This document shows, in pieces, positions 47,159-51,831 of a stretch of 64,000 nucleotides of DNA (positions are counted from its first letter, which is position 1; each line of letters opens with the position of its first letter). The notes beneath the pieces are model-generated. The model worked only from the letters and a program-made list of their open reading frames with translations, did not search any database and had not been told where the DNA came from. This stretch comes from Gammaproteobacteria bacterium. Its GTDB lineage: Bacteria > Pseudomonadota > Gammaproteobacteria > HyVt-429. Location of the stretch: the NCBI GenBank assembly GCA_013152415.1, contig JAADGI010000028.1:62001-126000 (forward strand), in the 5' to 3' direction. A program made the translations under genes and the position numbers.

Positions 47159-48979
47159 ATGGACCAGGACACGAAACGCACTGAATTGAAGAAGCTCATC
47201 CTGCGCGGCAAGGAGCAGGGCTTTTTGACCTACCGGGAGATCAATGACCACCTCCCGGAGGATATGCACGATACGGACCAAATTGAGTCGGTGGTCACCA
47301 TGATCAACGATATGGGCATCAATGTCTATGACCATCCACCCGACCCCGACACCCTGCTGCTCAAAACTGAATCCGCCGATGAAGAGGCCGCAGAAGAGGC
47401 CGAGGCCGTACTGACCACCGCTGTGGAAAGTGAGTTCGGCAGGACCACCGATCCGGTGCGTATGTACATGCGTGAAATGGGTACGGTCGACCTTCTGACC
47501 CGCAAGGACGAGATTGCCCTGGCCAAACGTATCGAGAGCGGCATTCGCCAGAGCACTGAGGCCATGGCCGGTTGCCCCATGACCATCGAAGAGCTTCTCA
47601 ACATGGCTGACAAGATCGCGGCCGAGGAGATGCGCCTTACCGATTTGGTCGTGGACTTTATCGACCCCAATGCCCCGGATGAAGTGCCCATCCCGATGCC
47701 GATCAAGCGAGACCAGATTGAAGCGGCCAAACAGGAAAAGAAAGAAGAGGAGGAAGAGGTAGACCTGGGGCCCGACCCCGAAGAGGCGATCAAACGGTTT
47801 AAGCGTATCCGCAAACTCTACAATAACTTGGTCAAGACCTTGAGCCGTGGTGGCCTGGATAGTGACGAGTGCATCAAGCTACAAGTCAAACTCGCCAGAG
47901 AGCTGATTGAGATTAAGTTTGTCCCCAAACAGATTGATCGCCTGTCCGAACAGGTGCGCAATATCGTGGATCAGGTTCGATTCCGGGAACGGGCCATAAT
48001 GGAAATCTGCATCAGAAAGGCCCGGGTTCCGCGTAAAGTCTTTTTGGATAGCTTTATCGGCAAAGAGACCAGCCCCAATCTGCTGAAGTCCCTGCTGAAG
48101 AAGAAGCAGGGCAATATTGATATGCTCAAGGAGAGATCAGACGATATCAAGGGTCTGCAAGCCAAACTGACACTATTGGAACACAGGGTTGGCCTGCCCA
48201 TTGGTGGACTCAAAGAGCTCAACCGCCGCATGTCAATTGGTGAAGCCAAGGCACGCCGGGCCAAAAAGGCCATGGTCGAGGCCAATCTGCGTCTGGTGAT
48301 CTCTATCGCCAAAAAATACACCAACCGCGGCCTGCAGTTCTTGGACCTGATCCAGGAAGGCAACATTGGGCTTATGAAGGCTGTCGACAAGTTTGAATAC
48401 CGGCGTGGCTATAAATTTTCCACTTATGCCACCTGGTGGATTCGCCAGGCCATTACCCGCTCCATTGCCGACCAGGCCCGTACCATTCGTATTCCGGTAC
48501 ACATGATCGAGACTATCAACAAGCTGAATCGGGTCTCTCGTCAGATTCTCCAGGAGAAAGGTCGCGAGGCCCTGCCCGAAGAATTGGCGGAACGCATGGA
48601 GATGCCGGAGGAGAAGATCCGCAAGGTTCTCAAAATCGCCAAGGAGCCCATCTCCATGGAGACGCCCATTGGGGACGACGAGGACTCTCACCTGGGTGAT
48701 TTTATTGAAGACAAAGCGGTACAAATACCCCTGGAAGCAGCGACCGGTTCGGGCCTCAAGGGTGCCACCGTAGACATCCTCGACACCCTCACCGCCCGTG
48801 AGGCCAAAGTGCTGAGAATGCGCTTTGGCATCGGCATGAATACGGATCACACCCTGGAAGAAGTGGGCAAACAATTCGACGTCACCCGTGAGCGTATACG
48901 TCAGATCGAAGCCAAGGCCCTGCGTAAATTGCGGCATCCCACCCGCTCGGACCATCTACGCACCTTCATAGAAGGCTAG
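47159..48979 (+). CDS. rpoD: RpoD, primary sigma factor (sigma-70)
   Basis: 606-aa housekeeping sigma factor. Region 1.1 ([20 protein letters not shown]), region 1.2 ([20 protein letters not shown]), a nonconserved acidic insert ([17 protein letters not shown]), region 2 ([15 protein letters not shown]-type block [19 protein letters not shown]), region 3 and region 4 ([20 protein letters not shown]). The size fits gammaproteobacterial RpoD. Confidence 0.98.
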
Positions 48980-49151: not shown

Positions 49152-49487
49152 GGGCCTGTAGCTCAGTTGGTTAGAGCAGGGGACTCATCTAAAAAGGTGC
49201 CGCCATATTGAAAGATATGGCTGGAACGGGATGAATTCAGGGAAACCTTAACGCCCATCATAGTATCGGTGGGGCTGATGGCAATCCTGAGCCAAGCCGG
49301 GGGTACACCTCCGGAAGGTGCAGAGACTACCTGGGGACTTGAGTGTCCTTAATCACAGGCTAGAGCGTCCCGCACCCCAGCAATTTGCGTTATGCGATTG
49401 CGGGTGATGAGATAGTCCACTCCCGCTAGAAATACCGGGGCAAAGTGAATCCCTTGGTCGTAGGTTCGAGTCCTACCGGGCCCACCA
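49152..49487 (+). tRNA. tRNA with CAU anticodon, probably tRNA-Ile2, split by a group I intron
   Basis: Exon 1 is 49152-49188 (acceptor GGGCCTG, D arm GCTC-AGTTGGTTA-GAGC, anticodon stem and CAT). Exon 2 is 49448-49487 (AATCCCTTGG, T arm GTAGG-TTCGAGT-CCTAC, acceptor CGGGCCC, encoded ACCA). Joined, they give a normal 77-nt tRNA with loop CTCATAA. The CAU anticodon fits tRNA-Ile2 (lysidine-modified) or elongator tRNA-Met; the TTGGTCG variable region resembles Ile2. A TAGAAT -10 box (49136-49141) with a GC-rich discriminator precedes it. Confidence 0.92.
49189..49447 (+). ncRNA. Group I self-splicing intron in the tRNA anticodon loop
   Basis: 259-nt insert directly after the anticodon U36, ending in G. 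Seen directly: GTG at 49197-49199 pairs with exon CAT, giving the U-G wobble at the 5' splice site (P1); P2 GCCATAT/ATATGGC (49202-49208/49215-49221); P/Q-like AGGGAAACCTTAACG (about 49239); R-like GGTGCAGAGACTAC (49318-49330); S-like GATAGTCC (49411-49418), with GACTA pairing TAGTC as P7. These are the conserved core elements of group I introns. No homing endonuclease frame is inside. Tiny tRNA introns of this class are known in Azoarcus tRNA-Ile(CAU). Confidence 0.9.
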
Positions 49488-50738: not shown

Positions 50739-51212
50739 TCATTTTTTTTTTTCGACCTTATTGGCCGTTACACGTTTAGACTTCCGCTTCTTGGGAGCCT
50801 TTTTGGCCTTTTTCTTGGCCTTCTTGACCTTCTTAGCCTTTTTCTTGGCCTTCTTCTTTTTCTTCACCTTTTTCTTAGCCTTTTTTTTCTTCTTCACCTT
50901 TTTCTTTTTCTTGGCCTTCTTCTTTTTCTTTACCTTTTTCTTCTTTTTAGCCTTTTTCTTCTTTTTCTTTACCTTTTTCTTCTTTTTCTTGGTTTTTTTC
51001 TTCTTTTTCTTTACCTTTTTCTTCTTTTTCTTGGTTTTTTTCTTCTTTTTAACTGCTTTCTTCTTTTTCTTTACCTTTTTCTTCTTTTTAGTGGCCTTCT
51101 TCTTTTTCTTGGTCACTCGTTTTTTCTTAGTGGCCTTTTTCTTAGCCGTCTTCCGTTTCTTGGTGGCCTTTTTCTTAGTGGCCTTCCGTTTCGTCTTTCG
51201 TTTTACAGCCAT
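50739..51212 (-). CDS. Histone H1-like, extremely lysine-rich DNA-binding protein
   Basis: 157 aa from the ATG at 51212 (MAVKRKTKRKATKKK...), which has an AAGGAG site 7 nt upstream; a longer frame to 51284 lacks this. Well over half of the residues are Lys, arranged as KKKKK blocks separated by single Ala, Val or Thr, with no other domain, and the chain ends VTANKVEKKK. Such H1/AlgP-like tails bind DNA nonspecifically and are known in several proteobacteria; a role in nucleoid compaction is inferred. The coding strand is A-rich and repetitive, so length may vary between strains. Monocistronic with its own terminator. Confidence 0.88.
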   Translation of the reverse strand: MAVKRKTKRKATKKKATKKRKTAKKKATKKKRVTKKKKKATKKKKKVKKKKKAVKKKKKTKKKKKKVKKKKKKTKKKKKKVKKKKKKAKKKKKVKKKKKAKKKKKVKKKKKAKKKVKKKKKAKKKAKKVKKAKKKAKKAPKKRKSKRVTANKVEKKK

Positions 51213-51831
51213 AGTGCTTCTCCTTTTCAGGGTGTGATAATCGGTCAGGATTATAAATAGGATGTGCGCTGTACAAGTGCACACGTACCCAAGGTACGAA
51301 ACACGCCCTTTACGGCCACACAGACCGTGCGGGAGCGTATTTCAGGTTGGATTCTTTTAAGTAGAGTGAACGAGGCACCTGCACGGGCTAGTACCGGCTT
51401 ATGCACGCTCTTGGACGTTGACAGGATACTCAATGTTCCATTTCGTCGCGTAGTTGTTTGTGTTTTGGTTCGTTTTACAATTTTTTCATTTAATGAAATT
51501 CAATGCAGTTGTTAATACGATGGTCTGTTTTTCGTTTTCTTCAAAACTCAAAAACCATCATACATCGAAAATCGAACTCAACTATAACTAGCAAACATTA
51601 AAAGTCAAGTTTCTATGCTACTCATAATTCTGACTTTTATCTCCATATTGACGACACTACAACTTAAATTTTCTTAAATTTTAAAATTTACCTGCACTCA
51701 AACCCTAAAATTGTTTCTAATACTCGACTGAAGGTGAATTATTGAAATTATCGGTGTTATAAATACGCCTTAAAGACAAAATTTCCGTTAATTGCACCTT
51801 TAGTTAAGTTTTTCTACATTAAAATGGATAC
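51213..51831. other. AT-rich intergenic region
   Basis: About 620 bp between the histone-like gene and nrdJb, markedly AT-rich from about 51470. Frames on either strand are short and without motifs. No repeat of the dispersed family was seen. It may hold promoters or an unrecognised small RNA. Confidence 0.4.

Follow-up and report, generated by a model that had tools for sequence, protein, structure and literature searches.

Sequence comparison leaves little doubt that a group I intron, which has no ORF and is presumably self-splicing, interrupts the primary transcript of tRNA-Ile2(CAU) in the 64,000-nucleotide stretch of gammaproteobacterial DNA analyzed here (the window), that decoding of AUA should depend on its splicing, and that it belongs to a patchily distributed gammaproteobacterial clade of introns with a P7.1-like helix. 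The gene lies in two pieces at window positions 49152–49487, split after U36 by a 259-nt intron (Table 1). The original prediction, that a CAU tRNA gene adjoining rpoD is split by a 259-nt group I intron just after U36, was exact in its coordinates, its length, and its insertion point, with the exons matching an uninterrupted gene in a relative from the same family.

Table 1 Coordinates in the window of the interrupted tRNA-Ile2 gene, its upstream neighbor, and the structural elements of the intron (G003 is a genome of the same family).
Feature	Position	Strand	Evidence
rpoD, upstream neighbor	47159–48979	+	Order rpoD then tRNA-Ile2 shared with G003
5′ exon of tRNA-Ile2(CAU), ending in anticodon C34 A35 U36	49152–49188	+	Nucleotides 1–37 of the uninterrupted, syntenic G003 tRNA, 100% identity
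Group I intron, 259 nt	49189–49447	+	RF00028, 72.7 bits; covariation
3′ exon of tRNA-Ile2, first base A37, CCA encoded	49448–49487	+	Nucleotides 38–77 in G003, 100% identity
P1: CAU/C (49186–49189) with GGUG (49196–49199), U36-G wobble at 5′ splice site	49186–49199	+	Invariant in 34 sequences
P2 hairpin, GAAA loop	49202–49221	+	Double-sided changes in 8/8 pairs
P3: 49227–49231 with 49368–49372	49227–49372	+	Invariant
P4 (49236–49241 with 49286–49291) and P5, longer loop (49246–49281)	49236–49291	+	Rfam alignment, intron alignment
P6 and P6a	49292–49318	+	Double-sided changes in 6/7 P6a pairs
P7: 49323, 49325–49329 with 49413–49418, including guanosine-site G-C pair	49323–49418	+	Invariant
P7.1-like helix between P7 and P3: base CCUG/CAGG, upper part GGGAC/GUCCU	49330–49359	+	Upper part: double-sided changes in 3/5 pairs
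P8	49373–49406	+	Intron alignment
P9.0 (49419–49420 with 49445–49446), P9 (49422–49439), omega-G 49447	49419–49447	+	Intron alignment

Identification of the intron and its empty sites

Sequence criteria confirm the insert as a group I intron inside the tRNA-Ile2(CAU) gene. A scan of the window against Rfam at gathering thresholds, the check suggested with the original prediction, returned a single match in 64 kb, which covers the full length of the Intron_gpI model (RF00028) with a score above the 50-bit threshold (E 1.6e-16), and this match is the only one across the whole 2.74-Mb genome. The insert has the features that define group I introns: a core of P3-P8 and P4-P6 domains with a guanosine-binding G-C pair in P7, a P1 helix built by an internal guide with a U-G wobble at the 5′ splice site, and a terminal omega-G preceded by the P9.0 pairing. 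Open stretches reach at most 46 codons on its coding strand and 53 codons on the opposite one, and the insert encodes no homing endonuclease, as had been predicted.

The joined exons form a 77-nt sequence that ARAGORN folds into a perfect CAU cloverleaf, in agreement with the claim that they make a perfect tRNA. On the raw window, ARAGORN reported no tRNA with default settings and misnamed the interrupted gene tRNA-Gln(CUG) when introns were allowed, a warning that standard annotation misses such genes.

Empty sites are found in relatives. In G003, the uninterrupted tRNA-Ile2 downstream of rpoD is identical to the joined exons, and in genome G002 the uninterrupted tRNA-Ile2 is 94% identical to them. 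These empty sites fix both splice sites to the base, slippage ambiguity aside, and imply that the insert was either gained in the host or lost in the relatives. A genome of the same genus (G001) was left out of the scoring, its contig stopping 23 bp past the rpoD match. In G003, the first 19 nt of tRNA-Ile2 (GGGCCTGTAGCTCAGTTGG) also recur as an isolated copy ~150 bp upstream of the tRNA-Ile2 gene (L180, G003:C19).

No consensus promoter was detected upstream of the interrupted gene, and a promoter and terminator scan gave nothing usable. A plasmid search returned only partial matches that cover at most 23% of the query and probably correspond to the tRNA exons. Elsewhere in the window, positions 50739–51284 on the reverse strand hold a 181-aa ORF with KKKA/KKKV repeats throughout nearly its entire length, which we take to resemble AlgP-like proteins of the histone H1 type.

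Structure of the intron and comparison with known systems

A structure of 67 pairs was derived from the group I template and scored on 34 related introns. Standard pairs occupy 97.4% of the cells in this alignment, and double-sided changes occur in 238 cells, compared with 72 on average in shuffles and 29–51 in slid controls. Covariation is seen in P2, P6a, P8, P9, and the upper part of the P7.1-like helix. It cannot test P1, P3, P4, P5, P6, P7, or the base of P7.1, which do not vary among the 34 introns. The two P9.0 pairs are A/G-U and C-G in 34 of 34 introns. An unconstrained fold of the whole precursor recovers the acceptor and T stems together with P2, P4, P6a, P7.1, P8, and P9 (z = −2.7). 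A P10 pairing is not evident in the window intron. The P1 wobble, P2, P7, and terminal G that had been read from the sequence beforehand are all present in the structure alignment.

In Azoarcus, the intron measures about 205 nt, and we take it to interrupt tRNA-Ile(CAU) after U36. The window intron shares with the Azoarcus sp. BH72 intron its tRNA, this site, the guide pairing with CAU, the absence of an ORF, and the core, but adds to the compact form a P7.1-like helix and a longer P5, which together make up the extra length. Compact Azoarcus-type IC3 introns are not extended between P7 and P3, whereas the window intron has nine covarying or conserved pairs there, and for this reason we assign it to no subgroup. 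The expectation that the additional sequence would lie after P7 was thus borne out for the P7.1-like helix and not for the part that lies in P5. The Azoarcus pre-tRNA-Ile(CAU) intron belongs to group IC3 and has been studied by crystallography (PMC3984707); its report is attributed to Reinhold-Hurek and Shub (1992) where cited in PMC4033280 and PMC3984707.

The td ribozyme (IA2) differs from the IC3 introns of Azoarcus and Synechococcus by P7.1/7.2 between P7 and P3 (PMC4498298). By description, the T4 td intron (group IA2) is like the window intron in the position of its extension between P7 and P3, but it interrupts a protein gene and its extension is larger, whereas the window intron lies in a tRNA gene. 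For Acidovorax and Burkholderia, group I introns within the tRNA-Ile2 gene have been reported as a reason for a "missing" Ile2 (Chan et al, 2021; PMC8450103). As in those cases, the window intron is a group I intron in tRNA-Ile2 that escapes tRNA finders and leaves a genome seemingly without Ile2, but the Acidovorax and Burkholderia hosts are Burkholderiales, an order in which introns at this site are either compact or have a different J7/3 insert, whereas the window intron belongs to the gammaproteobacterial clade. A 2014 review listed tRNA group I introns only for cyanobacteria, alphaproteobacteria, and betaproteobacteria (PMC4033280), and the open-licence literature yielded no direct description of gammaproteobacterial tRNA-Ile2 introns or of P7.1 in IC3 introns.

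Distribution of introns at the tRNA-Ile2 site

In a sample of 369 genomes from the class, tRNA-Ile2 is interrupted in 23 and uninterrupted in 290. Introns of this type are common in the class, and their rarity had been overstated. No uninterrupted Ile2 copy was found in 22 of the 23 interrupted genomes, as expected if the introns splice; G114 alone of the 369 has both forms. Interrupted and uninterrupted genes mix within genera (e.g. g48, g83, and g218).

A pattern scan of named genomes found at least 119 stretches in which an Ile2-like 5′ exon is not followed by A. From the matches listed and the loci of the class search, at least 107 intron-bearing Ile2 genes were delimited, with introns of 203–334 nt plus one of 685 nt; some of the 107 are one locus fetched twice, and two duplicates were taken out for the tree. 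Among the matches listed, named genomes hold about 100 introns at this site. A 1175-nt match in L106 was rejected as a false pairing with another tRNA. The size of the window intron had been regarded as unusual, which does not hold: 259 nt is average for the site, in the middle of the 203–334 nt range among the matches listed, and the P7.1-like helix is found throughout the subfamily instead of being specific to this genome.

Inserts at the tRNA-Ile2 site are of three kinds. The compact, Azoarcus-like kind (203–212 nt) occurs in Limnohabitans, Rhodoferax, and Burkholderiales MAGs, and forms a separate deep branch in the intron tree. A second kind, with a different J7/3 insert, occurs in Burkholderiales and Bacteroidota. 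The third, with the CCUG/CAGG helix, is gammaproteobacterial and includes the window intron; a CCUG-type P7.1 helix is present in all 23 interrupted genes of the class sample. Support in the tree is low around the window intron, whose placement suits transfer and vertical descent alike. The deep splits of the tree are long branches that drew a program warning, so we claim no deep relations from it. Introns at the same site in gammaproteobacterial MAGs (e.g. L125, L087, L034, L084, and L148) are at most 84% identical to the window intron over 234 columns and have the same P7.1-like helix, differing from it only in the sequence or loop length of P2, P5, P6a, P8, and P9. On the best reading of these comparisons, the window intron would be a typical representative of a known kind, presumably active and not exotic.

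Identity of the tRNA and probable dependence of AUA decoding on splicing

A CAU anticodon is shared by the tRNAs for Met, initiator Met, and Ile2, and Ile2 reads AUA once its C34 has been modified to lysidine. The acceptor stem of the joined exons has C4-G69 and C5-G68, which are determinants for E. coli TilS (PMC12514573). The host genome has its own elongator Met tRNA, with the U4-A69 and A5-U68 pairs that are among the bacterial Met determinants (PMC9976931), as well as a separate initiator Met tRNA and a tilS gene (TIGR02432, 184 bits against a cut-off of 93.6). Because of these acceptor-stem pairs, the separate Met and fMet tRNAs, and the tilS gene, we assign the interrupted tRNA to Ile2, which settles by sequence a choice between Ile2 and Met that the original prediction had left to be made.

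A whole-genome tRNA search of the assembly, which is 93% complete, found no second Ile2 or UAU-Ile tRNA among the 41 other tRNAs, and a pattern for uninterrupted Ile2 had no match in the host genome. The proviso that this be the only CAU isoleucine tRNA is therefore borne out within the limits of a 93% complete assembly, and the search for an intact intronless copy, which would have marked the locus as a dead gene, found none in the host assembly. tRNA-Ile(GAU) and tRNA-Ala(UGC), both encoded within rRNA operons in many bacteria, are likewise absent from the assembly. AUA codons are present in rpoD (4), dnaG (2), tsaD (2), and nrdJ (3), and total 14 of 2804 codons over seven genes. With no other reader of AUA among the tRNAs detected, cellular AUA decoding likely depends on removal of the intron, as judged from a 93% complete assembly, and the interrupted gene is probably vital to the cell.

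The tRNA-Ile2 site is occupied by an intron of the gammaproteobacterial clade, which is patchily distributed and has empty sites in the same family. The guide GGUG pairs with CAU and the first intron base to form P1, placing the U-G wobble at the splice site. In the proposed mechanism, exogenous guanosine would attack after U36, and the freed 3′-OH of U36 would attack after the omega-G, ligating the exons. Only after ligation would TilS convert C34 to lysidine, allowing the tRNA to be charged with isoleucine and to read AUA. The gene offers a clear-cut example of a sense codon whose decoding seems to rest on a single ribozyme.

Other readings of the locus carry little weight. The CAU anticodon, and the label of Met that ARAGORN gave to the joined exons, would suit an intron hosted by elongator Met instead of Ile2, but this identity can be ruled out for practical purposes by the acceptor-stem determinants, taken with the GACUCAUAAUC loop context, and by the separate Met and fMet genes; were the tRNA Met, AUA would have no tRNA to read it. 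Loss of function, with a pseudogenised tRNA, a decayed intron, and AUA read by another tRNA missing from the assembly, would be compatible with the incompleteness of the assembly, with the presence of both forms of Ile2 in G114, and with a truncated intron and 3′ exon that G004 holds in addition to its full gene. We nevertheless consider decay very improbable and set it aside, because the exons are 100% identical to the tRNA of a functional relative and all core helices of the window intron are intact; searched with the same pattern, 22 of 23 interrupted genomes gave no other Ile2 copy.

It is also unlikely, if less so than decay, that the intron is something other than a neutral self-splicing insert, either needing a protein cofactor in vivo or having a regulatory role such as conditional splicing that limits AUA decoding. 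The peripheral helix P7.1 is conserved in every gammaproteobacterial member sampled and the intron persists in a single-copy essential gene, both of which would fit such a role, but the patchy occurrence within genera and the uninterrupted Ile2 of most of the class argue against an essential role for the intron itself, and regulation has no direct evidence. A presumably self-splicing insert in tRNA-Ile2 is thus the reading that we retain. The class set, with its 23 interrupted and 290 uninterrupted genes, provides a comparative system for the gain, keeping, and loss of ORF-less tRNA introns, and is equally suited to studying the function of the P7.1 extension in a tRNA ribozyme that is compact in other respects.

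Related introns and variant loci

A related group I intron lies after U36 of the tRNA-Lys(CUU) gene at about 25950–26189 of L036 (G014:C134). The guide in this intron reads GAG, matching CUU, and the guide thus changes with the anticodon. The base of P7.1 reads GCGG/CCGC, not CCUG/CAGG, in this tRNA-Lys(CUU) intron and in L078 and L159. It is conceivable, though we hold it only tentatively, that the P7.1-bearing gammaproteobacterial tRNA-Ile2 introns form an undescribed structural subgroup in which an IA-like extension between P7 and P3 is added to an IC3-like core. Such a subgroup would have undergone repeated gain or loss in a tRNA gene that is essential and single-copy, and would have relatives in tRNA-Lys(CUU) with a matching guide.

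The 685-nt tRNA-Ile2 intron is at the same site in a Saprospiraceae MAG (L104, JAHDEQ010000213.1) and has a 142-codon frame upstream of its core. This frame has an HNH endonuclease-like HHID...CANCHAEKH pattern and matches Pfam HNH weakly (14.8 bits, below the cut-off), making L104 a candidate homing-endonuclease-bearing member of the tRNA-Ile2 intron family. In two other loci, L042 (G049:C213) and L043 (G035:C46), the terminal G and the joined exons indicate that tRNA-Ile2 apparently has a group I intron between U33 and C34. At L050 (G004:C149:6973-7295), the 3′ part of an Ile2 intron and a complete tRNA 3′ exon are fused to unrelated upstream sequence; the full Ile2 gene of G004 is on C134, and L050 has the appearance of a duplicated 3′ half. 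Three contigs with Ile2 introns bear the labels Akkermansia, Actinomycetes, and Halobacteria group (L068, L098, and L172); their introns fall inside or beside the proteobacterial ones in the tree, and the contigs are probably mislabelled or misbinned.
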